A stretch of DNA of 49,819 bases from Candidatus Latescibacterota bacterium. GTDB lineage: Bacteria > Krumholzibacteriota > Krumholzibacteriia > WVZY01. The stretch covers positions 1 through 49,819 of the forward strand of contig WVZY01000073.1 in assembly GCA_011772205.1 (NCBI GenBank), in the 5' to 3' direction. Position numbers and translations under genes: made by a program. The notes under the pieces were generated by a model. That model had not been told where the DNA came from. It saw only the letters and a program-made list of their open reading frames with translations, and did not search any database. Position 1 is the stretch's first letter, and every line of letters starts with the position of its first letter. Shown in pieces: positions 6,652 to 35,834 of this stretch.

Positions 6652-8154
6652 TCAACGAATCCGCCCGGACAGCGTGAATTCACGGAATAGTGGCCTATCT
6701 GTAATGGACATATCGAGCCGATCGCCTTCGAACGACACAAGCACCTTCCAGTGTGTGGGAGCTCCGATTTCGTGGAGATCCATGGAAAATGTGCCGTCTT
6801 CGAGCCAATTACCTCTTGCGGCCAGTCTGCTGCCTCCCTGCACGCGGCCAAAATCACGAACATCCGTTACCCGGTAAATCCCGTCGAGCCCAACGGCCAA
6901 TTCGTATTTGGCATTGGGCGTTTCGAGCGTCATCACTCCGGTGTCTTCGTGCGGGAAGTCGAACGTCACGGCCTTGTACCTTGGATTCGGGTTGAGCCAG
7001 TATCTCTTACCGGCGATTTCAGCCGCGATGGCAGGCGGATTCGACGGCTGTTTGGGCGCGGGATGTTCGAGGTCGTTTATGATCTTTGTGAGTTCTTCAT
7101 ATGCTTCAGGATTTGCCGGATGGGCCTCGTCGCTGATCGTTGATTCGTCGAAATCACGAAACAGGATGTCTCCCGTCTCGTGAGTCGCGCTGGTTACGAC
7201 CATGACAATGTTGGCTTCTCGATGATAGCTGATGCCCTGCCCTCCCCATCCAATTGCATCGACGAATCCATCGTCGTTTACATACCACCAGTATCCATAC
7301 TGCTGATTCCCGCACGGAATCTGGACGCGGCCGGACGTCGACTCCTTAATCCACTCCGAAGGTACGATTTGCTCCCCGTTCCACTGTCCTTTGTTTAAAA
7401 ACAGCGTCCCGAACCGCGCCAGATCCCGGGGTGTCATGAAAAGCTCCGCCCCCCCGAAATAGTAGCCTTTCGGGCCTCGCAACCATTGAACATCCGTTAT
7501 ACCGAGGGGATTGAAGAGATACGTGTTGCAGAGTTCGAGGAGGCCGCGCCCACTGGCCTCCGTAAGAATACCCGACATGAGGTGGGTGAGCCCTGTGCAA
7601 TAGGTATACCGCGTACCGGGATCTTCGACCATGGGTCGGGCCAGCGTCGCCCCTATCCAATCGCTGCTGTTGAAAATCATGCGCATGATCGGCCCATTCT
7701 CATCGAGATCGAGGCCGGATGTCATCGTAAGCAAGTGACGCAGCGTGATCGATTTCTTGCGCGGATCCGTCTCATCGGTGAAATACTGCGGAAAGTGGTC
7801 ATATACCGTCTCATCAAGGCTCTCGATGATTCCTTCGCGAAGGGAGATGCCAACCATTGCGGAGATGATGCTCTTGCTCACCGACTTGACATTGTGAAGA
7901 GAGGTTTCATCGTAGGGATGCACGTAACATTCGAGAATCACGCGACCGTTTCGAATCATAATCAAACTGTGCATGTCGAGTTCGAGTTCCTTCACCCGGG
8001 CGAGCATCAGAGCGAGCTCACGCGAATCCATCCCCTGCTCTTCGGGGGGGCACGGTTCCCAGTTGATGTCGGCGCATTCCGCGACGTCAGCACCCGCTAG
8101 GAGCAATATTGCGGGGAGCAGCAGAAGTGAGAAGATCGCGTGCTTTGGATTCAC
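6652..8154 (-). CDS. Secreted serine hydrolase, beta-lactamase/esterase fold (class C-like)
   Basis: 500 aa. A signal peptide (residues 1-27, SLLLLPAILLLAGADVAECA) is followed by a PF00144-type domain. The nucleophile motif S-x-x-K is SVSK, in NVKSVSKSIISA. The second motif is YTYCTG, and the third region reads IGWGGQGISYH, as in the 6-aminohexanoate-dimer hydrolase (NylB)/EstB branch rather than true AmpC. A C-terminal extension of about 130 aa (from KRYWLNPNPRY) looks like a beta-rich accessory domain. It probably hydrolyses an ester or amide in the periplasm; the substrate is unknown. The start is GTG at 8154, with AGGAGA six bases upstream. The overlapping ATG two bases earlier is followed at once by TGA. 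Confidence 0.8.
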   Translation of the reverse strand: MNPKHAIFSLLLLPAILLLAGADVAECADINWEPCPPEEQGMDSRELALMLARVKELELDMHSLIMIRNGRVILECYVHPYDETSLHNVKSVSKSIISAMVGISLREGIIESLDETVYDHFPQYFTDETDPRKKSITLRHLLTMTSGLDLDENGPIMRMIFNSSDWIGATLARPMVEDPGTRYTYCTGLTHLMSGILTEASGRGLLELCNTYLFNPLGITDVQWLRGPKGYYFGGAELFMTPRDLARFGTLFLNKGQWNGEQIVPSEWIKESTSGRVQIPCGNQQYGYWWYVNDDGFVDAIGWGGQGISYHREANIVMVVTSATHETGDILFRDFDESTISDEAHPANPEAYEELTKIINDLEHPAPKQPSNPPAIAAEIAGKRYWLNPNPRYKAVTFDFPHEDTGVMTLETPNAKYELAVGLDGIYRVTDVRDFGRVQGGSRLAARGNWLEDGTFSMDLHEIGAPTHWKVLVSFEGDRLDMSITDRPLFREFTLSGRIR

Positions 8155-8610
8155 ATCTTGTCTCCTGTATAACGCTTGACTGATATCGACTTAGTTACGT
8201 CAGATTGCCCTTGATAATATTTTCGCTGCCAATCAGGACGGTTTCGCTTTGTCCATAGCAAGCTATGACGCTATATACGAATGCGTAAGCAACTTGTTGT
8301 CCTTAAAAAGCGGCTTCTTCAGTGTCTTGCAAGTTTGAAACAGGCATCAGAGAAACAGAATAACGATAGAAATGCACGCCCCCAACGACATGCGACCCAG
8401 CCGTCAGGACAGATCGCAGAATGAGAACACCACCCGACACAACTTCATGCAAAATATTCAGTTACAAAATGGCTGGGCAAACGATACTTCGCTCGAACTC
8501 ATCGGGGCTTCTCGAGCACCCTGCTTCACTATCATTGTTATTTTCCGGGAATAAGAATTTTGAGTCAGTCCACTGAACCTTTTCCATGCCCAGCGTCGTA
8601 TCTCATTCAG
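8155..8610. other. Non-coding gap with a decayed hairpin/tRNA-Asp-like repeat
   Basis: About 450 bases with no supported gene. The part near 8430-8505 resembles the hairpin plus tRNA-3'-end repeat seen at 20311 and 21844, in decayed form (see 8470-8505). The rest shows no recognisable structure. Confidence 0.5.
8470..8505 (-). repeat. Decayed tRNA-Asp 3'-end-like copy
   Basis: TGGCTGGGCAAACGATACTT followed by CGCTCGAACTCATCGG resembles the reverse complement of the T-arm and CCA end of tRNA-Asp, with about four extra bases. The sequence just to its left (CCCGACACAACTTCATGC) resembles a degraded form of the associated hairpin. The subtype GCAAACGA-ACT is shared with the copy at 29647. Confidence 0.4.
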
Positions 8611-21879: not shown

Positions 21880-21886
21880 AAAACAA

Positions 21887-22080
21887 TGGCGGGGCCGACG
21901 AGACTCGAACTCGCGCCCTCCGGCGTGACAGGCCGATGGAAGAGAAAAATGAAAGTGATTGAAAATGCTATAGTTGCAGAAATGACAGCAAGTTACCGGG
22001 CTTTTAAGCTGTCCAATCAGTTCCTTTTTGTCGCATACGGGTACATGCAACCCGATCTGTAGTGGCACAAAAGTGGCACA
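21887..22080 (-). repeat. att-like repeat: tRNA-Asp 3' end plus island-end sequence (copy 1)
   Basis: 21887-21935 matches the 3' 49 bases of the tRNA-Asp at 35757 with one mismatch, including CCA, T-arm and part of the anticodon arm. It then diverges. The next ~145 bases are about three-quarters identical to 29483-29627, including AATGAAAGTGATTGAAA and TGCTATAGTTGCAGAAA. The unit ends with two AGTGGCACA copies (22061 and 22072), like arm-type recombinase sites. It is 194 bp long; the sister copy is 195 bp. Confidence 0.75.
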
Positions 22081-24806: not shown

Positions 24807-27080
24807 CTACTGGTACCTGAAGCACAAGCCCTCGATGCGCAGCTCCTGGCCTCCGATCTCGAACTGTTCGATGTCACCCACGATCGACACCGCGCCCCGC
24901 CAGTCGCCGTCCACGATGGTCGAGATCGAGTTCAATTGCGCCCCGCCGATCACCTGGCCGTTGAGCGCGTTGATGTCGTCGGCCTCACGGTGTTCGCCGT
25001 TGACGCGGACGTTTATATTTCCGCCTGTTTCCAGATACTGGAACGTGACCTCATATACTGGGCACAGGATCTGGAAGTCGGCGCTCGCGTTGTTGGGGTT
25101 GAGGGTGTTTCCGTCGCTGCGCACGGATCCGCTGGTCGCCCACCGGCCGTCGGCCCACTGAAACGGCACTACGGCTACCTGCATCCCACGGGTCGTGAAG
25201 CCTTCGCCGAGGTTCCAGCGGCCGTCCGCCGGCAGCTCGTCGAAGTCGTAGCACGCCATCGTCGGGCCGTCGCACTCTGCGCGGCGGAGAATCGTGCCGG
25301 TGGTGCCCACGGCGTAGTACGCCTGATTGGCGTCTCCCCACAGGCCGTGCATCGTACTGATCGTGATCGGTTCCTGGGGCGACCAGGCGGCGCCGTCGTA
25401 GTGAAGGACGGTATGCATGCCTACCGCAGTCACGTCGGTCGCGGAGTGCCCGAAGACGGAATAAAGGGACGACGTCGTGCCGCTAGACTGCGGCGACCAT
25501 GTCGCGCCGTCGTAGTGCAGGATCGTTCCGCCGGTACCAACCGCAAACACATCGGAGGGTCCGCTGCCCCATACGTCCCACAGCATACCGCTGACACCGG
25601 TGGTGTGGGTGCTCCACGTCGTGCCGTCGTAGTGGCCTATCAATCCGCTGCCACCCGAGACGAAAATGTCGTTCGGCCCGAACCCCCAGATACCGAGGAG
25701 TTCCGAACCCCACGGTGACGGAATGGTCGACCAACTGCTGCCGTCATAGCGCACGATTCTCGAATTCGGAAACCCTCCGACGGCGTACACGTTGGAGCCG
25801 TCGGTTCCCCACACGTCGTAGAGATTGTCGGTGACGCCGGTCGCCATGCTCGACCAGGCCGTGCCGTCGAAGTGGAGGGCGTCTCCGCTCATCCCGACGG
25901 CGAAGACATCGTTCGGCGAGGAGCCCCACACTCCCCAGGCCCTCGCGAGCGGGGGGACGGATTGCTCGACCCACACGCCTCCGGCGAGCCGTACGACACG
26001 TGCGTTCAGCCCACCGCCGACGGCAAAGACGTCGCCGGTGGGAAAACCCCAGATTCCGAAGAGGGACTCAGTCGTTCCGGTCGATTGGGTCGTCCACGCC
26101 GTGCCGTCGTAATGAAAGACCTGGCCTTCGTTTCCGACGGTGTACACGTCGCTGCCCGAACTCCCCCACACGCCGAGCAGCCACGACGTCCCTCCCGACT
26201 GCTGGGTCGTCCACGCCGTGCCGTCGTAGTGGCGGATGGCGCCGTCGGCGCCCACTCCGAACACGTCTTCCGGCGCACTGCCCCACAAGTCGTCGATGGG
26301 ACGGGTATCGAACGTCTGCATCTGCGTCCAGGACGTGCCGTCGTAGTGAAAGACGTTTCCGTTGCTTCCCGACGCGAATACGTCGGTGGCGGAGAAGCCC
26401 CACAGCGAGGTGTAACCCTGGGCGGACGGCGCCGACGTGTCGTTCCAGTCGCTGCCGTCATAATGGAGAATCACCGAAGCGCCACCGGCAAAGACGTCGC
26501 TACCGGAGGAACCCCAAAGGCTGTAGAAGTTCTGCGGCGTTCCGCTGGGTTGTTGCGTCCAGCTGGTGCCGTCGTAGTGGAGAATCGTCCCGCCCTGTCC
26601 GACGGCGAACACGTCGTTCGACGAATTTCCCCACACTTCCCATAACATCGTCGTCACGCCGCTGTTCTGCTCGGCCCAGTCGGTGCCGTCGTAGTGGAGA
26701 ATCGTCCCGCCCTGTCCGACGGCGAACACGTCGTTCGTGCCGACGGCCCACACGTCGTTGAACCTGTAACTCGTGCCGATGGATTCAACCGACCATTGCG
26801 TACCGTCGTAGTGGATCATCGCCCCGTGCACGCCGACGGCCCAGATGTCGCCGGCAGATACGCCGGAGATCGACTCGAGCCGCGCCCCCTGAGGCAGGGG
26901 GTTGCTCCATACCCAATCGAAGTCGGGTGGGACGACCGGCGTTTCACCGGGCCCGGCGCAGGCGGCAAGTATGATGAGGACTATGAGAAGAGTGGTGAAG
27001 TGTCGGTTTTTTGGTGTGGCTGGAAGCGGATTGATTGGCTGCTCTGTCCCCAAATGCTCCCTTAACCGTTCGGGGTCCAT
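24807..27080 (-). CDS. Large lipoprotein with about 13 propeller-like repeats
   Basis: 757 aa. The ATG at 27080 follows GGAGGG by five bases. A hydrophobic segment TTLLIVLIILAACAG ends in the lipobox LAAC (Cys near residue 41). Residues about 55-600 are roughly 13 repeats of about 42 aa with the consensus W-x-VWGSS-x-NDVFAVG-GGTILHYDGT-W-x-QxSGT, as in the kelch/WD-like repeat lipoproteins of myxobacteria and related groups; they probably form one or two beta-propellers. The C-terminal 150 aa (MACYDFDELPADGRWNLGEG ... RIEGLCFRYQ) is a separate beta-rich domain, possibly ligand- or carbohydrate-binding. The coding DNA is markedly GC-rich, and repeats at 26563-26620 and 26688-26745 are almost identical, pointing to recent internal duplication. 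Function unknown. Confidence 0.75.
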   Translation of the reverse strand: MDPERLREHLGTEQPINPLPATPKNRHFTTLLIVLIILAACAGPGETPVVPPDFDWVWSNPLPQGARLESISGVSAGDIWAVGVHGAMIHYDGTQWSVESIGTSYRFNDVWAVGTNDVFAVGQGGTILHYDGTDWAEQNSGVTTMLWEVWGNSSNDVFAVGQGGTILHYDGTSWTQQPSGTPQNFYSLWGSSGSDVFAGGASVILHYDGSDWNDTSAPSAQGYTSLWGFSATDVFASGSNGNVFHYDGTSWTQMQTFDTRPIDDLWGSAPEDVFGVGADGAIRHYDGTAWTTQQSGGTSWLLGVWGSSGSDVYTVGNEGQVFHYDGTAWTTQSTGTTESLFGIWGFPTGDVFAVGGGLNARVVRLAGGVWVEQSVPPLARAWGVWGSSPNDVFAVGMSGDALHFDGTAWSSMATGVTDNLYDVWGTDGSNVYAVGGFPNSRIVRYDGSSWSTIPSPWGSELLGIWGFGPNDIFVSGGSGLIGHYDGTTWSTHTTGVSGMLWDVWGSGPSDVFAVGTGGTILHYDGATWSPQSSGTTSSLYSVFGHSATDVTAVGMHTVLHYDGAAWSPQEPITISTMHGLWGDANQAYYAVGTTGTILRRAECDGPTMACYDFDELPADGRWNLGEGFTTRGMQVAVVPFQWADGRWATSGSVRSDGNTLNPNNASADFQILCPVYEVTFQYLETGGNINVRVNGEHREADDINALNGQVIGGAQLNSISTIVDGDWRGAVSIVGDIEQFEIGGQELRIEGLCFRYQ

Positions 27081-29406: not shown

Positions 29407-29432
29407 AAGATATTGAAAATGGGAATGTTAAA

Positions 29433-29627
29433 TGGCGGGGCCGACGAGACTCGAACTCGCGACCTCCGGCGTGACAGGCCGGGCGAGGAGGAAAATGAAA
29501 GTGATTGAAACTGCTATAGTTGCAGAAACGATAACTGGTTACCGGACTTTCACATTGTCTGTTCTGTTCCCTTTTGTCTCATGAAAACCTAACCGACCCG
29601 GTCCGTAGTGGCACAGGAAGTGGCACA
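29433..29627 (-). repeat. att-like repeat: tRNA-Asp 3' end plus island-end sequence (copy 2)
   Basis: 29433-29482 is identical to the 3' end of the tRNA-Asp at 35757 through CCGG of the anticodon arm, then departs. The following ~145 bases match copy 1 (21936-22080) and end in AGTGGCACA at 29607 and 29619. Because the tRNA is on the minus strand, the element body must lie to the right of this core, toward the intact tRNA. Confidence 0.78.
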
Positions 29628-29646
29628 CTTTAATGAGAACATTAAT

Positions 29647-29679
29647 TGGCGGGGCAAACGACACTAAATCGAACTTATC
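29647..29679 (-). repeat. Decayed tRNA-Asp 3'-end-like copy
   Basis: TGGCGGGGCAAACGACACTA then AATCGAACTTATC keeps the CCA end and T-loop of tRNA-Asp in complement but has lost the stem pairing. It shares GCAAACGA-ACT with the copy at 8470. Confidence 0.45.
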
Positions 29680-29944
29680 AAGCCATTATCACCGCCATCT
29701 TGGGGTTGCAACTCTTTGCTAGTTAATGAGAAACCCGTTCTTTTCGCCGGCAGCTTGTTTTTCTCCGTCGAAGAATGGCATTACCAATTGAACGTTGCTC
29801 GGACCCAATTGAATACGACGGAACTTCGAGCCAAAGTGATCCTCAAACCATAGGTAGAGGAAGGCGCACGAAGAATTGAAAAGCCAGACGCGTCCACTTT
29901 AGGGCTTGACCGAAGTAAGATCCTCATATTAAAAAACCTTAATT

Positions 29945-29969
29945 ACTCAAGGGATGCTCGAGTTTTTTC
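29945..29969 (+). terminator. Hairpin with T6 tract upstream of the response regulator
   Basis: ACTCAAG-GGATG-CTCGAGT with one mismatch, followed by TTTTT. No intact gene precedes it on this strand. Confidence 0.4.
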
Positions 29970-30059
29970 GGTTCATGATGCCCGTGAAGGGACGCGTTCA
30001 CAACGAATTGTATTCCAACATGTTAAGCGTATGAACGGATACCGCAGCGGAAATATCAC

Positions 30060-30716
30060 ATGGCGAAAATACGAGTCTTGTTGATCGAGGACAACCGGCT
30101 TTTGCGAGAGGGAATCGCCGCCATGCTGACAGATGATGGCGATTTCGAGGTCGTCGCACGATCGGACGACGGCGATGCAGTACGCCAGCTCAAAGCTGCC
30201 GGCAAGGCGCCCAACGTCATACTTCTGGATCTTGGTCTGGAAAAAGCGAACAGCCTGAAGCTGATGGCACTGCTTCGGGATGAATTACCCGACGCAAAAG
30301 TGATTGCCATGGACATACTCCCTGAACAGGTTGACATGATCGAGTTCGTGCAGGCGGGGGGGGCCGGCTTCATTCTCAAGAGCGCCCCCTTTGACGATTA
30401 CATCAAAACCATCAAATTGGTCGCAGCAGGGACAAACGTGCTTCCGCCGGTTTTAACCACGTCACTATTCACGCAGATTGTCGATTCTCTGCTCAAGAGC
30501 GGCGAGAGCATACCGGACGATTCAGTAAAACTGACACCACGTGAGAGAGAGATTGTCGACCTGATATCCGAGGGCTTGAGCAACAAAGAAATCGCGAAGC
30601 GTCTCCACATTGCGACATATACGGTAAAAAGCCACGTCCATAATATCCTGGAAAAGCTTGCCTTGAGTACCCGGCTGCAGATAGCGGCCTTCGCCCGAAA
30701 AGACCGCCCTAAATGA
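30060..30716 (+). CDS. NarL/FixJ-type response regulator
   Basis: 218 aa. The receiver domain (1-120) has the acidic pocket ED (10-11), phosphoacceptor Asp57 in VILLDLGLE and Lys107 in FILKSA. The position usually held by the switch Thr/Ser is Asp85 (VIAMD), and Phe104 takes the aromatic switch. The C-terminal LuxR-type helix-turn-helix (about 153-212) reads LTPREREIVDLISEGLSNKE and TVKSHVHNILEKL. A DNA-binding transcription regulator is clear. The Asp in place of the switch Thr could alter how phosphorylation is read. No histidine kinase is encoded nearby. It is the first gene of the cassette that includes the baeRF and radical SAM genes, 165 bases upstream of the former. Confidence 0.9.
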   Translation: MAKIRVLLIEDNRLLREGIAAMLTDDGDFEVVARSDDGDAVRQLKAAGKAPNVILLDLGLEKANSLKLMALLRDELPDAKVIAMDILPEQVDMIEFVQAGGAGFILKSAPFDDYIKTIKLVAAGTNVLPPVLTTSLFTQIVDSLLKSGESIPDDSVKLTPREREIVDLISEGLSNKEIAKRLHIATYTVKSHVHNILEKLALSTRLQIAAFARKDRPK

Positions 30717-30881
30717 CGGAATCGTGATCAATTTTTTTTTGATATGTTCTGGGGAACACACCATTCCGACCATACGTTCCTCGTTTCTCATTCTTAAGAT
30801 CTACATCCCTTTTCATCCTTTCGCCCGATTGTAGCGAATTCCCCTACTCACTAAATTCTTATAATAAAGAGGAGACCCAAC

Positions 30882-31607
30882 GTGCATATGAGCACGCATT
30901 ACTATGTCATTTCCCTAAGCGAACACGAGAACGCGCTTTATGAGGCGTTCCGCGACGATGTAATCGATATCCGCAATGGAGGGTTTCCGGTTGAGGTGTC
31001 GTTACGAGCAAGCAGTGCGGCCGATTCCATCGATCGGGAGGAGCGATTGCGTGAAGCGTTACGAATCGTAGATCAACTCTTTGGAGACTGCTACCGGCAT
31101 GACCCGCTGGGCGTTGTCGTAACCGGCAAAAAAGAATTGCTGGATTTATTTGCTTCGGTGACGGCGCATCGAAGCGTCATCGTTGGTCGTATCGAAGGCG
31201 ATTACAGCACTACCTCTCTACACGATTTGGGCAAGATCGTCTGGCCCATCGTCAAGGAAGCCATATCGGGTCTGCTGGATGAGGCAATGCGCGACCTGGA
31301 AATTGCAGAGAAGGCGGGCCGGACAGCGTGCGGTCTTGATGCAGTGAGCCAGCTAGCCATAGCAGGAGTGAGTGCTACGCTAATCGTCGAGGATGATTAC
31401 CATATGCGAGGGAGCATCACCAGAACGAGTCAATCGTTGGAAATATCTCAAGAAGTGGATGTGATGGAAGAGTTGGATGATGCTGTTGATGTGGTCATTG
31501 AGAAGGTACTCGAATCGGGAGGCAATGTGGTTTTTGCGCCGAGCGGTTCGTTGCATAGACAGGGGAGAATTGTGTTGCTTTTGCGCGAATCGGAAGGTTT
31601 GCAATAA
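30882..31607 (+). CDS. Bacterial archaeo-eukaryotic release factor-like protein (baeRF)
   Basis: 241 aa starting at a GTG (30882), seven bases after GAGGAG; the ATG two codons later is the alternative. The N-terminal part (YYVISLSEHENALYEAFRDD, ASVTAHRSVIVGRIEGDYS) and the C-terminal eRF1-domain-3/L7Ae-like end (VVIEKVLESGGNVVFAPSGSL, then GRIVLLLRESEG) match the pattern of bacterial baeRF proteins. In that C-terminal segment family members read NVVFVPDGxLxxxGRIALILRY. These proteins are distant relatives of eRF1/Dom34 and are thought to act on ribosomes, but few have been tested. No GGQ motif is visible. It sits between a response regulator and radical SAM genes, with 62 bases to the latter, and is probably cotranscribed with them. 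Confidence 0.65.
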   Translation: MHMSTHYYVISLSEHENALYEAFRDDVIDIRNGGFPVEVSLRASSAADSIDREERLREALRIVDQLFGDCYRHDPLGVVVTGKKELLDLFASVTAHRSVIVGRIEGDYSTTSLHDLGKIVWPIVKEAISGLLDEAMRDLEIAEKAGRTACGLDAVSQLAIAGVSATLIVEDDYHMRGSITRTSQSLEISQEVDVMEELDDAVDVVIEKVLESGGNVVFAPSGSLHRQGRIVLLLRESEGLQ

Positions 31608-31669
31608 ACACGCAATGCATACAAAGATGATTACAGATATCGAATTACATCAAAGTGTAAGGAGGATGC

Positions 31670-33100
31670 ATGCGTCTGCTCCTGATTAATCCCTGTAATC
31701 CGCTGGTAAATACCGGCTCGAAAAAAAACCGTTGGAACAAGTACCGTGCCTGGAAACCTCTGGGCCTCCTGGTGCTGGCCGGCTTGACACCCGCTGAATG
31801 GGAAATCACCATTGTTGATGAAAACACCGGTGTGCCCGACTACAAGCGGATGCCTCGTCCCGATCTGATGGGCGTGTCAGCCTTCACTTCACAGGCGCCC
31901 CGAGCGTATGAATTGGCCGCTGAGTTTCGTACCCGTGGAGTACCCGTCGTAATGGGTGGAATCCATGCAACGATGCGCCCGGCGGAAGCGTCGGAGCGAG
32001 TGGATGCAGTAGTGACGGGCGAGGCCGAGAGTGTCTGGACGCAGGTTCTGGAGGACGCCCGACGCGGTGCTTTGAAGCCGTTATATGAAGGCAGCCTGGA
32101 GGCTTTGGAGAAGACTCCGTTCCCTCGGCACGATCTGCTCCCGACCGGATATCATTTTGGGTCTATACAGACCACACGAGGGTGCCCGCTCAACTGCAGC
32201 TTCTGCAGCGTCAGCGCCTTTAACGGGAGGGAATACCGTCGCCGTTCGATCGAAGACGTTGTGGCGGAGTTCAAATTGATTCGCGAGAAAGAGGTCCTGA
32301 TCGTGGACGACAACCTCATTGGCACTCGCGGTGATCATATTGCCCGTGCGAAGGAACTGTTCCTGGCGATGATCGAGGCCGATCTCGGCAAGAAGTGGGT
32401 CGCCCAGGCGACGATCAACATGGCTGATGACGAAGAGCTGCTTCGACTCGCAGAGCGCGCTGGCTGCACCGCTGTTTTCATCGGCTTCGAAACGACGGGG
32501 GACGAAGGGCTGATCGAAGTGCGCAAGAAGTACAACATTCAAAAGAGCCGCGATTTCAAGGCCTCGGTCCGCCGAATCCAGCGGCATCATATCCTCGTGG
32601 TCGGTTCGTTCATTATCGGCCTGGACGTCGATCGATCCGGCATCGGGCTGGATATCGCCGACACGGCCACTCGGTATGGTGTGGATGCCATCAACGTGAT
32701 GTTTTTGACGCCGCTGCCGGGCACCGAACTTTGGAAGAAAATGGAGGAAGAAGATCGTATTGCCGCGGACAGCTTCCCCGAAGATTGGAAGTACTACACG
32801 CTCACACTGCCTGTGGGCCGCTACCGTCATCTCAGCCGTGCTGAGATCATAGAGGAAATGCATTCCTGCAATCGATCCTTTTATTCATGTGCTCGAATTC
32901 TGCGGCGGGTGGGGCGTAACTTCTGGAAGAGACACAAGGCCTTTCTCTCCCTAGTGTGTAATCTTTCATACCGAAAGAACACCCATCTAGGTCGGAAGGT
33001 TCATTGGGAATTCAAACGTTCACTCGATCAGTTTCAACTCAATCGCCGGTTGCCTACGACCGGGGATAATTTGCATGTTGGCACCCCCCCATCAGAGTGA
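31670..33100 (+). CDS. B12-binding-domain radical SAM enzyme (1)
   Basis: 476 aa; the start at 31670 has AAGGAGG close upstream. Residues 1 to about 150 form a cobalamin-binding-like Rossmann domain (MRLLLINPCNP, PLGLLVLAGL, then VPVVMGGIHATMRPAE and VVTGEAESVW). The radical SAM domain follows with the 4Fe-4S motif C-x3-C-x2-C as CPLNCSFC (Cys172, 176, 179) and a TIM-barrel pattern (LIVDDNLIG, VFIGFETTGDE, LTPLPGTELW). The C-terminus (about 390-476) is Arg/Lys-rich. Such enzymes typically methylate or rearrange carbons in lipids, hopanoids, bacteriochlorophyll or peptides; the substrate here is unknown. It is followed by a second, different radical SAM gene. Confidence 0.88.
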   Translation: MRLLLINPCNPLVNTGSKKNRWNKYRAWKPLGLLVLAGLTPAEWEITIVDENTGVPDYKRMPRPDLMGVSAFTSQAPRAYELAAEFRTRGVPVVMGGIHATMRPAEASERVDAVVTGEAESVWTQVLEDARRGALKPLYEGSLEALEKTPFPRHDLLPTGYHFGSIQTTRGCPLNCSFCSVSAFNGREYRRRSIEDVVAEFKLIREKEVLIVDDNLIGTRGDHIARAKELFLAMIEADLGKKWVAQATINMADDEELLRLAERAGCTAVFIGFETTGDEGLIEVRKKYNIQKSRDFKASVRRIQRHHILVVGSFIIGLDVDRSGIGLDIADTATRYGVDAINVMFLTPLPGTELWKKMEEEDRIAADSFPEDWKYYTLTLPVGRYRHLSRAEIIEEMHSCNRSFYSCARILRRVGRNFWKRHKAFLSLVCNLSYRKNTHLGRKVHWEFKRSLDQFQLNRRLPTTGDNLHVGTPPSE

Positions 33101-33184
33101 GTTGAAAACGAATATCGACCGCACCTGTGCGGGTGAAAGTGAACACCGGTTAGCTAGAAATGGCACAGCATTGAGGCAAATACC

Positions 33185-34792
33185 ATGAAGAACGATCCTG
33201 CAGACAGACCACATCACGCCGATCAGGGAATGCACGACAAGCGTTTCCGTTTCCGTGTCGTAGCGCCCGCTTACCCGGCGTTCAACATTTACTCCAATAT
33301 TGCCAAGATAACGACGGCTCTGGGACCCGTTTGCATCGCTACCATTGCGAACAAGATGGAGGGCTGCGATGTCGAAGCAATTGATGAGAACAACTATCGA
33401 CGATTCGGTCCCAAGGATACAGCCGGATTGCCGGATCACAGTACACTTCAGACCATCCGAAAGGCTGACGTAGTCGGTTTTTACGGCGGACTCTCCAGCA
33501 CGATCCCACGGCTCCACGAACTTGCCCGCTTTTATCGGAGCCGTGGCGTTATCACGGTCGCTGGCGGCCAGCACTTCGTCGATGAAAACATCGAGCATGC
33601 CCTCCGCAATGGAGTGGACTATATAGTTATCGGTGAGGGTGACGAGACCATCAGAGACTTGCTTACAGCTATTCGCTTTAAGCGTGACCCTGGGCGTATC
33701 CCCGGTGTGGCCTTTCTTCGGAATGGCGAGGTGATTAAAACTTCCGAACGGCCGCCGCTGACCGACTTCGCCGGGCTGCCCCTGCCCGATTTCTCTCTGC
33801 TGCGGTATGCGAAGATCAAGTTGTACCCGATCAGCTGGACCCGCGGGTGCGGCATGGATTGCGAATTCTGTACAGTCAAGAGTAAGCCAAGGGCTGCTCC
33901 ACCCGAGCGGGTGGTCGAACAGATCGCCACGCTGCTAGAGAAACACAACGCTCGGCATTTTTTTATGGTGGACGACCTGTTCGTCCAGAATCGAAAGGAC
34001 ACGCTTTGGTTGTGTGAGATGCTCGCCTCCTACCAGAGAGCGGTTGGAACACGACTCGACTTGACGGTGCAGATTCGCCTGGATCGAGCACGCGACCCTG
34101 AACTCCTGCGCGCGATGAGAAAGGCAGGCATCAATACAGTCGCCATCGGGTATGAGTCACCGATCGCTGAAGAGCTGGAAGCGATGAAAAAGAAAATCCG
34201 CCCGGAGAACATGTTAACCATGACGCGTGAATTCCACAAAGCGGGCTTCCTCGTTCATGGTATGTTCATTTTTGGCTACCCAATGGCTGAAGGCGTCACC
34301 TTCTCTATGGCCGCGAAGGAACGTGTGAAAAGATTCAGGGAATTCATACGCAACGCGCGAATCGATACCGTTCAGATCCTTCTACCGGTTCCTCTTCCAG
34401 GCACCGAGCTAACCCGCCGACTTGTTAGGAGCAACCGCATTTTTCCGATAGATTGCGTGGGATGGGAGTACTACGACGGCAACTTCCCGCTTTTCCAGCC
34501 GGATGCTCCTTTAACCCCCGAAGAGATGCAGACATCCATCCAGAAGATAATGGGCCACTTCTATCGTTTCCGGTACATGTTCTCGATTGCACTGAATGTA
34601 CTCACTTTTCCAGCCATGATTTTCTCGCTCTGGAACATCAGATTCGGCTGGCGCAAGTGGTACCGGCATTGGCGCAACCACCTATTACGGTTTGGCGGGT
34701 GGATCGTCATACGGAAGTGGACATATCAGTTCAAGAAAGGAAATTTCTCAAAGAAACTGAGAGAAGCCAAGCGGAGTCTTGAGCACTCCTGA
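33185..34792 (+). CDS. B12-binding-domain radical SAM enzyme (2)
   Basis: 535 aa; the ATG at 33185 is preceded by GAGG. An N-terminal B12-binding-like domain (about 15-160; VVAPAYPAFNIYSN, VVGFYGGLSSTIP, ITVAGGQHFVDENIEHAL) leads to a radical SAM domain with CGMDCEFC (Cys222, 226, 229) and the barrel strands FFMVDDLFV, VAIGYESPI, MFIFGYPMAE and LLPVPLPGTEL. The C-terminal 90 residues carry a hydrophobic helix (MFSIALNVLTFPAMIFSLW) and a very basic aromatic segment, suggesting membrane association and a lipid-like substrate. It is 85 bases after the first radical SAM gene. The two may act in sequence on one molecule, or one may be an accessory. Function not assigned. Confidence 0.88.
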   Translation: MKNDPADRPHHADQGMHDKRFRFRVVAPAYPAFNIYSNIAKITTALGPVCIATIANKMEGCDVEAIDENNYRRFGPKDTAGLPDHSTLQTIRKADVVGFYGGLSSTIPRLHELARFYRSRGVITVAGGQHFVDENIEHALRNGVDYIVIGEGDETIRDLLTAIRFKRDPGRIPGVAFLRNGEVIKTSERPPLTDFAGLPLPDFSLLRYAKIKLYPISWTRGCGMDCEFCTVKSKPRAAPPERVVEQIATLLEKHNARHFFMVDDLFVQNRKDTLWLCEMLASYQRAVGTRLDLTVQIRLDRARDPELLRAMRKAGINTVAIGYESPIAEELEAMKKKIRPENMLTMTREFHKAGFLVHGMFIFGYPMAEGVTFSMAAKERVKRFREFIRNARIDTVQILLPVPLPGTELTRRLVRSNRIFPIDCVGWEYYDGNFPLFQPDAPLTPEEMQTSIQKIMGHFYRFRYMFSIALNVLTFPAMIFSLWNIRFGWRKWYRHWRNHLLRFGGWIVIRKWTYQFKKGNFSKKLREAKRSLEHS

Positions 34793-34961
34793 GAGGATGA
34801 GAGAATCCATTATCCGCATAGTCGCTTCAGCCAAGAGGCCAATTAGCTGTCGTCATTACAGTTGCAGGCGCGCCACAGACAGTCCCGAGGCTGGCAATAC
34901 GCAGTGCCAAATCCGGGTGCCGGGAGTTGTCGAGAAATCGCCTTCCCACAGACGATTTACC

Positions 34962-34990
34962 TTGGACAAGGACTGAATTAGTGTTATAAT
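34962..34990 (+). promoter_or_regulatory. Strong sigma70-type promoter with a long leader before the RRM gene
   Basis: TTGGAC (34962-34967), 17 nt, TATAAT (34985-34990). The predicted start at about 34997 leaves a 5' leader of nearly 200 bases before the ATG at 35194. No riboswitch class was recognised. Confidence 0.65.
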
Positions 34991-35193
34991 TTTTTAACTC
35001 AGAGAATAGTCCCGCCACCTTCGTCTCCGCAGATTTCGCCCCCGCAGTTACGAGTGTTGGTTCCGGAGCATATTTTTCCGAGTTCATTGAAAGTGGGCAC
35101 GAGGCTCACTTAAAGCAGATTGGTGTGGTTAGCAGCTGTCGTTTCAGCGGGTGACCGCACGAGTTCAAAAGGGGCGAAAGAAGGAGTTGTTCA

Positions 35194-35460
35194 ATGTCCA
35201 AGAGACTATATGTCGGCAATCTTCCATTCGATGCGTCGACTGAGGACATCCGCGCTGCGTTTGAAGCGCATGGAACCGTTCACGATGTTTCACTCATGAC
35301 CGACCGCGATACTGGTCGCTCCAGGGGATTCTGCTTCGTCGAAATGGATGAGGAAGGCGCCAGGGCCGCAATAGCGGGCCTTGACTCCAAGGATTTTGGA
35401 GGGCGCGACCTCAAAGTCAGCGAAGCGCGTGAACGGCAAGGTGGACGCGGACGTAGATAA
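35194..35460 (+). CDS. RRM-domain RNA-binding protein
   Basis: 88 aa, a single RNA-recognition motif with a short basic tail. RNP2 is LYVGNL (5-10) and RNP1 is RGFCFVEM (44-51), both with the aromatic residues that stack on RNA (Tyr6, Phe46, Phe48). The tail RERQGGRGRR is Gly/Arg-rich. It closely resembles the bacterial and cyanobacterial Rbp family, where several members respond to cold and bind mRNA. AAGAAGGAG lies seven bases before the ATG. The ~200-base leader behind a strong promoter suggests post-transcriptional control. A strong terminator follows, so it is monocistronic. Confidence 0.93.
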   Translation: MSKRLYVGNLPFDASTEDIRAAFEAHGTVHDVSLMTDRDTGRSRGFCFVEMDEEGARAAIAGLDSKDFGGRDLKVSEARERQGGRGRR

Positions 35461-35485
35461 CATACGATTCGTTTTCCAACTAACG

Positions 35486-35517
35486 AAGGGGCTGCAAACG
35501 CGGCCCCTTTTATTTTG
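35486..35517 (+). terminator. Rho-independent terminator of the RRM gene
   Basis: AAGGGGCTGC and GCGGCCCCTT form a 10-bp stem with one mismatch and loop AAAC, followed by TTATTTTGT. Confidence 0.88.
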
Positions 35518-35635
35518 TATACTTTTGTATGCCGGAAGCGCTTAGGAAGTCAACATTGCGGTATTATCACAAGCACAACCGGATTATTCAAAGCATTCAA
35601 AATAGATGAAGCCTCCAAGCGACAACAACAAAACC

Positions 35636-35662
35636 GCCCCGCAACTCAACTCGTTGCAAGGC
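35636..35662. repeat. GCCCC hairpin downstream of tRNA-Asp
   Basis: GCCCCGCAAC pairs with GTTGCAAGGC. On the minus strand it is followed by GGTTTTGTTG and lies about 95 bases after the CCA end of tRNA-Asp, so it may terminate the tRNA transcript. It is the native-position member of the hairpin family. Confidence 0.5.
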
Positions 35663-35756
35663 AATCTCTTATTTGGATTTTCGCAGCGCTGAAGACTGTC
35701 CGCTCGAAATCCCAATAAAAAACACGGCCCTAAGTCCTTGTTTTCTATAATGATAA

Positions 35757-35834
35757 TGGCGGGGCCGACGAGACTCGAACTCGCGACCTCCGGCGTGACA
35801 GGCCGGCGTTCTAACCGAACTGAACTACGACCCC
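35757..35834 (-). tRNA. tRNA-Asp (anticodon GTC)
   Basis: 78 bases with an encoded CCA. The acceptor stem GGGGTCG/CGGCCCC has one G-U pair, the D-arm is GTTC/GAAC, the anticodon stem CCGGC/GCCGG has the loop CTGTCAC (anticodon GTC), the variable loop is AGGTC, and the T-arm is GCGAG-TTCGAGT-CTCGT. The discriminator base is G73. Its 3' half is duplicated at 21887 and 29433, as expected of an integration target. Confidence 0.97.

Follow-up and report, generated by a model that had tools for sequence, protein, structure and literature searches.

What does a short relative of the ribosome-hibernation factor Balon do when its gene stands beside a response regulator gene and in front of genes for two radical SAM enzymes? 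The question is raised by positions 30,060 to 34,792 of contig WVZY01000073.1 (GenBank assembly GCA_011772205.1), which comes from a Candidatus Latescibacterota bacterium. We analysed positions 1 to 49,819 of the forward strand, and “the window” always means this whole stretch of 49,819 nucleotides. An earlier description made from the DNA letters alone (the sequence-only reading) had placed four plus-strand genes here, encoding a response regulator, a baeRF protein, and two B12-type radical SAM enzymes; this is confirmed by the open reading frames (ORFs) and their Pfam domains. These genes and the control region that concerns us most are as follows.

30060..30716, plus strand: response regulator (RR) gene, 218 amino acids; an orphan NarL/LuxR-type regulator forming a distinct orthologous group.
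30786..30833, plus strand: conserved upstream block and candidate RR operator, TCTCATTCTTAAGATCTACATCCCTTTTCATCCTTTCGCCCGATTGTA, lying inside a 72-nt matrix match.
30829..30857, plus strand: weak sigma-70-like baeRF promoter, TTGTAG (30829-30834), 17 nt, TAAATT (30852-30857).
30882..31607, plus strand: baeRF gene, 241 amino acids, GTG start; Balon-type, middle and C domains only.
31670..33100, plus strand: rSAM1 gene, 476 amino acids; B12-binding and radical SAM domains, CxxxCxxC at 172/176/179.
33185..34792, plus strand: rSAM2 gene, 535 amino acids; second B12-binding and radical SAM enzyme, with a hydrophobic and then basic C-terminus.

Our answer is that this is probably a regulated ribosome-hibernation operon in which RR would activate a short baeRF. 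RR binding, activation, co-transcription, ribosome binding, hibernation, and the roles of the radical SAM enzymes are what we infer from sequence and structure models. The support is at the level of sequence, and consists of gene order, conservation, domain loss, the co-occurrence of RR and baeRF, and a conserved block with its promoter spacing. The main interest of the locus is the RR, its control site, and a Balon relative without an N domain, rather than the two radical SAM enzymes. The intergenic gaps are 165 bases (RR to baeRF), 62 bases (baeRF to rSAM1), and 84 bases (rSAM1 to rSAM2); for the two gaps after baeRF, the sequence-only reading gave 62 correctly and 85 where 84 is measured.

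The identity of baeRF carries much of the argument. The protein belongs to Pfam baeRF_family3 (PF18845; 1.9e-26, 93.9 bits against a gathering cut-off of 31.5), and its sole NCBIfam match is NF052287, the AOC03_06830/Balon hibernation factor (5.7e-46, profile positions 113-360 of 361). Balon is also the only significant relative by sequence in the PDB (8rd8, aligned to its residues 117-368). When the AlphaFold2 model (mean predicted local distance difference test score, pLDDT, 78.5) is compared with known structures, the best match pairs residues 3-236 with Balon residues 119-369 (8rdv; Z 18.0, root-mean-square deviation (rmsd) 7.8, 213 aligned), followed by Msmeg1130 (Z 14.9, rmsd 8.0, 211 aligned). 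The middle and C domains of aRF1, Dom34, and eRF1 match at about Z 12-13, and the C domain of Pelota at Z 13.4 with an rmsd of 1.8 over 91 residues. The closest known systems are Balon of Psychrobacter (AOC03_06830; NF052287; PDB 8RD8/8RDV/8RDW) and Msmeg1130/Rv2629, to which the middle and C domains are homologous in sequence and predicted fold; the Balon middle domain, which reaches the peptidyl-transferase centre, and the C domain on the EF-Tu side are both matched. Because baeRF is a relative of a Balon-type hibernation factor, the tie between translation status and stress that the sequence-only reading had proposed is supported.

Compared with Balon, the window's baeRF is paired with a dedicated RR and lacks the N domain, the part of Balon that touches the decoding centre (PMC10901736). 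No counterpart of that domain with its decoding-centre contact (HP motif) is found in baeRF, whose match starts at profile position 113 of 361 and at Balon residue 117. As the alignments begin past the N domain (about 112 amino acids) and the 165-bp upstream gap is too small for it, we take the domain to be absent. Stretches corresponding to the bL27 trap loop and the EF-Tu beta-hairpin do exist, and are either variable or modelled at pLDDT <60.

This form is not peculiar to the window. In a tree of 20 short baeRF proteins from several phyla and three long ones, a branch supported at 100/100 separates the short from the long. According to PMC10901736, the Balon study removed 806 homologues of <300 amino acids, typically without one or two domains, and the short clade is the kind that this length filter set aside. 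A short-baeRF profile gave 11 matches among 80 genomes of the window's phylum, namely nine short forms, a remnant (genome G017), and a long-type protein (genome G049); the last two were left out of the short-baeRF count. In the phylum of a Calditrichaeota metagenome-assembled genome (MAG), 9/82 genomes have a baeRF match, two of them long-type, and in a Bacteroidota sample the short form was present in only 1/395 genomes at E<=1e-50.

Could the short baeRF serve in ribosome rescue or in subunit quality control, as the VLRF1/Vms1 branch does, and not in hibernation? Domain loss would fit such a role, for the actinobacterial acVLRF-1 family of that branch is described as having lost its N-terminal, stop-codon domain (PMC6514570, in the part consulted), and in the structure comparison Pelota/Dom34 and aRF1 rank next below Balon. 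Balon is nevertheless nearest by both sequence and structure, and baeRF has no conserved GGQ-type glutamine, the loop being variable and the GG of the window's family not kept elsewhere; we therefore hold a rescue role to be unlikely. The baeRF-1 clade of Burroughs and Aravind (2019) falls in the same Pfam family, baeRF_family3, and its members were predicted to be non-catalytic ribosome regulators (PMC6514570); in the portion of that account used here, losses of the C domain or of both flanks are described, and not a loss of the N domain only. Its text nowhere mentions radical SAM, B12, or response regulator (0 occurrences of each). Beyond PMC10901736, PMC6514570, and PMC5694894, we found no account in the open-access papers searched of a Balon controlled by an RR or lacking its N domain.

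The second part of the argument is the constancy with which RR accompanies baeRF. RR has the Pfam domains Response_reg (2.2e-13) and GerE (2.2e-17). Its phosphoacceptor, D57, is kept in 13/14 orthologues (Asn in locus L036), and D85 and K107 are invariant in 14/14. The group has the signature A-M-D here, and all 14 have Asp85 and no Thr/Ser at the switch column; the column of Asp85 is what we take to be the usual Thr/Ser switch position. There is no sensor kinase among the annotated genes adjoining the window RR; a genome-wide search was not made.

With a strict profile (E<=1e-70), RR was found in 8/78 genomes of the window's phylum, all of them among the nine with a short baeRF, and in the ninth (G002) the stretch where RR would lie is filled with N. 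The Fisher p of 3.8e-10 for this co-occurrence is a guide only, as it treats genomes as independent though they are related. Across several phyla, RR lies in the same gene block as baeRF at 14 of 16 assessable loci; five of the 21 short-baeRF loci could not be assessed (an N gap in L011; contig ends in L018, L024, L087, and L091), and places fetched twice were counted once (L021/L035, L010/L017, L009/L015, and L006/L016). The loci include named MAGs of Calditrichaeota, Marinimicrobia, KSB1, and Bacteroidetes; the pair recurs in Calditrichaeota, Marinimicrobia, and Bacteroidetes MAGs, with identities to the window's proteins of 61-84% for RR and 41-74% for baeRF across loci. The grouping is thus more than chance, since RR-baeRF recurs across phyla and baeRF-rSAM1 within the family; the proposition that homologues of these genes are never neighbours elsewhere fails, with RR and baeRF adjacent across phyla and the order RR-baeRF-rSAM1 kept within the family.

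In some loci two further genes stand between RR and baeRF, encoding a small protein (c20) and a protein with a weak Peptidase_C11, clostripain-like match (c21): L035 7199-8816, L036, L037, L023, and L085 14054-15646. In L085, c20 and c21 are fused to each other.

The third part is the control region. A block of about 48 bp abuts the baeRF promoter (together, window 30786-30857). In a first matrix scan it was found upstream of baeRF, or of c20 where that is the first gene of the operon, in 18/18 assessable loci, with scores of 26-49 against <=14.5 in shuffles; three of the 21 loci (L011, L024, and L091) were not assessable. A 72-nt matrix, built without the second tandem site of L085, gives the window site a score of 61.3 (49.2 in leave-one-out), and shuffled sequence reaches -1.7 at most. 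In nearly all of its sites a -10-like TA follows a TTG/TTT -35-like hexamer at a spacing of 17 nt, and the conserved bases lie mainly upstream of the promoter, not in the transcript. When 41 loci (486 kb) were scanned with this matrix, 25 sites scored >5, of which 15 precede baeRF, six precede c20, and four precede other genes, encoding an ice-binding-like protein, an outer-membrane barrel, a secreted protein, and a small RskA-like protein. The ice-binding-like gene is immediately 3' of RR (L038 4198-5400), and in L085 the block is present as a near-exact duplicate (7341-7412 and 7613-7684, 272 bp apart) upstream of one baeRF.

The sites are also rare. We examined 869 kb of the window's own genome out of 4.13 Mb: the window site is the sole match above 8 in 469 kb, and a further 400 kb held only a match of 5.7 (L157), which was dropped as noise because it lies inside an unrelated ORF. 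In 400 kb of genome G039 the only two sites are those of its locus, and 400 kb of G019, which lacks RR, yields zero. The scan of the 41 loci gave no site in the 13 from RR-less genomes (L039, L059, L060, L062-L068, L092, L095, and L096). We read the block as an RR operator beside a weak, activator-dependent promoter, to which RR would bind.

Some observations weigh against the reading of the locus as an RR-controlled hibernation operon. L019 and L084 have the block ahead of the short baeRF, yet for at least 7 kb upstream of that gene they contain no RR; in these two loci RR encoded elsewhere in the genome, or another protein, may bind it. Such loci would suit an explanation in which the block serves some other regulator, or is a promoter for an alternative sigma factor or an RNA leader, and RR and baeRF merely travel together; the first half of the block may indeed be drawn as a small RNA hairpin. 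We nonetheless regard this explanation as rather doubtful, given the near-fixed 17-nt spacing to the -10-like TA, bases conserved mainly upstream of the promoter, the absence of the block from the sampled RR-less loci, and the near-perfect co-occurrence of RR and baeRF in the phylum. Its structured-RNA version may hold but is set aside, nearly every site being followed by the same promoter spacing.

To the same side of the balance belong the following. The baeRF promoter is missed by a generic consensus scan, so it is judged by conservation only, and sigma-70-like promoters in the region show no excess (three found against a shuffled mean of 5.5). At 157.6 bits, baeRF is below the NCBIfam Balon-type cut-off of 330, and the EF-Tu hairpin region is of low confidence in the model (residues 175-198, pLDDT <50); being below that cut-off and without the decoding-centre domain, baeRF may not bind ribosomes as Balon does. 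Pfam scans of the window ORFs identified no RaiA/HPF gene beside baeRF. Finally, rSAM1 occurs without baeRF in 10/16 loci (the G017 scar, described below, counted as linked), more than with it.

How might the preferred hibernation operon work? The orphan NarL-type RR, expressed from its own promoter, would receive a stress signal, whether through phosphorylation or in some other way, and bind the block (about 30786-30833) that adjoins the -35 region of the weak sigma-70-type promoter on its upstream side. Binding would turn on baeRF and, via read-through, rSAM1 and rSAM2. The short baeRF could then fill that half of the A site which belongs to the large subunit, with no need of the small-subunit decoding centre. 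Its target would be either free 50S subunits or 70S ribosomes in which another factor already holds the decoding centre; on either, baeRF would keep the peptidyl-transferase centre idle. For rSAM1, the predicted role is a radical modification in the same stress state. A far bolder version would have a widespread class of hibernation factors without the decoding-centre domain silencing 50S subunits (or 70S held by another factor), with its own RR and operator in several phyla, and, in one lineage, joined to a radical SAM enzyme whose chemistry alters the sleeping ribosome or one of its RNAs; we consider this very unlikely to hold in full.

Most knowledge of ribosome hibernation derives from factors of culturable bacteria. 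In the clade of short Balon relatives only the half that faces the large subunit is retained, and these proteins come with their own regulator and a conserved site of control; this suggests an overlooked way for bacteria to put ribosomes to sleep. Two questions thereby become testable: can a protein of the Balon type work without the decoding centre, and how, outside mycobacteria, does a dedicated regulator of the two-component type turn a hibernation factor on? For binding assays the control site, short and well conserved, is a direct handle.

The mycobacterial parallel deserves a closer look. Rv2629, a Balon homologue, belongs to the DosR dormancy regulon (PMC5694894, in the part relevant here), so that there too a response regulator controls a Balon homologue, as RR is proposed to do by analogy here. 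The system of the window differs from that of DosR in that the RR is encoded beside baeRF, has no adjacent kinase, and has few sites in the examined part of each genome. The DosR box is TTSGGGACTWWAGTCCCSAA. Its GGGACT half is common to several of our sites (e.g., those of L020, L006, and L038), a short resemblance in a different arrangement to which we give little weight.

Where do the radical SAM enzymes fit? Both have Radical_SAM and B12-binding Pfam domains above cut-off, and share these domains and the CxxxCxxC motif with B12-type radical SAM enzymes (BchE/HpnJ/HpnR-like; AprD4, CysS, TsrM, and TokK). Both are far below every NCBIfam equivalog cut-off (BchE, HpnJ, HpnR, and others), which leaves them outside the named families, and because the best Foldseek match, AprD4, is a dehydratase, methylation is not established.

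In rSAM1 the motif cysteines C172/C176/C179 are invariant in 14/14. The rSAM1 family is present in 13/78 genomes of the phylum, with orthologues at 62-86% identity in two families. The gene lies directly after baeRF in all five baeRF-bearing genomes of the window's family (the window's own, G001, G002, G003, and G004), the RR side being gapped in one. In another family, genome G017 (L059 about 7945-8200; G017:C169) has a deletion that joins the first codons of RR (with a stop) to the end of baeRF, of which 40-odd codons remain, and the scar is directly upstream of an intact rSAM1, which implies that the order RR-baeRF-rSAM1 once existed there too.

Even so, baeRF is not the commonest neighbour of rSAM1. 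A gene with an RNA-recognition motif (RRM) lies within 5 kb in 11/15 assessable loci, against about 0.2 loci expected by position (51 RRM matches, 13 genomes, about 38 Mb), the counts not being independent owing to shared descent; from 17 places, a 38% paralogue (G000:C77) and a contig-edge locus (G004:C221) were left out. A second rSAM1 copy (86%) in the window's own genome, on another contig (L012, G000:C63, 150-4850), is in a cluster of RRM, hflK, hflC, and rSAM1. In the Calditrichaeota locus L020, RR-baeRF is followed by another radical SAM gene, 31% identical to rSAM1, with genes for a Band 7 protein and an RRM protein further on. It is possible, if doubtful, that rSAM1 and RRM are the real unit, for an RNA- or membrane-linked modification, and that baeRF came to adjoin it by chance in one ancestor: besides the frequency of RRM, rSAM1 lives without baeRF in several genomes. 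This has to be set against the tightly spaced RR-baeRF-rSAM1 order in five genomes of one family and the scar in another, loci that are related by descent and so not independent counts. The best explanation is that rSAM1 was recruited into the hibernation operon in one lineage from an RRM-associated setting.

The second enzyme has a different history. rSAM2 shows the CxxxCxxC motif, has no match at E<=1e-40 in five near relatives, and has three homologues in the phylum at 66-69% identity, of which 0/3 are near baeRF or RR in the stretches examined. On that count we rejected the idea of two radical SAM enzymes forming one set with baeRF; the single functional set of the sequence-only reading does not survive, with rSAM2 apart from baeRF in all three homologues and rSAM1 often without baeRF and mostly beside an RRM gene. 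rSAM2 is a later, local, lineage-specific addition to the operon. That reading had also given one of the enzymes a membrane-associated basic C-terminus. This is reasonable for rSAM2 only, whose hydrophobic stretch (residues 465-483) and basic tail are kept in its three relatives; the C-terminus of rSAM1 is basic, not hydrophobic, and its model (mean pLDDT 65, C-terminus mostly <50) is uninformative on the tail. In L096 (3615-6713), an rSAM2 homologue adjoins another B12-type radical SAM gene, and an RRM gene is 3.4 kb away.

The surroundings of the operon supply the remaining features.

29431..29482, minus strand: copy of the 3' half of tRNA-Asp, an att-like boundary, 52/52 identical to 35755-35806.
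35194..35460, plus strand: RRM RNA-binding protein gene (PF00076, 5.8e-20), the fifth gene within the tRNA-derived boundaries and a recurrent neighbour of rSAM1.
35485-35510, 3' of the RRM gene: terminator-like hairpin from a generic scan.
35757..35834, minus strand: intact tRNA-Asp (gtc), from a tRNA search.

The two tRNA-derived boundaries described in the sequence-only reading are therefore real, namely an intact tRNA-Asp and a 52-bp, 100% copy, and they enclose the RRM gene as well. A block of about 197 bp that begins with the copy (29431-29630) recurs at 21885-22080 with 81% identity; this suggests that tRNA-Asp received two insertions in tandem. These repeats invite the view that a tRNA-Asp integrative element carries the cassette as passenger cargo, the genes of the cassette being grouped without a joint function, with the perfect 52-bp repeats flanking 29431-35806 and the second copy at 21885 pointing to tandem insertions. 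We find it improbable and rejected it as the main story: there is no tyrosine-recombinase domain among the 17 window ORFs scanned, and the order RR-baeRF-rSAM1 is kept away from tRNA-Asp, in relatives whose loci have no tRNA-Asp match. With the same gene order at unrelated sites in relatives, the element explains at most the local placement and the insertion of rSAM2.

The generic terminator scan that gave the hairpin is uninformative (eight found against 6.4 in shuffles), and the sole Rfam match on the window is the tRNA. At 24807-27080 the window encodes a 757-amino-acid protein with many repeated 'WG..HYDG'-like motifs and a lipoprotein-like start, which matches no Pfam family above cut-off. 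The three tRNA-Asp-derived blocks (21885-22080, 29431-29630, and 35755-35806) delimit segments of 7.5 and 6.3 kb, and the left one is richer in guanine plus cytosine (59.7%) and carries Y2 and rve-type transposases.

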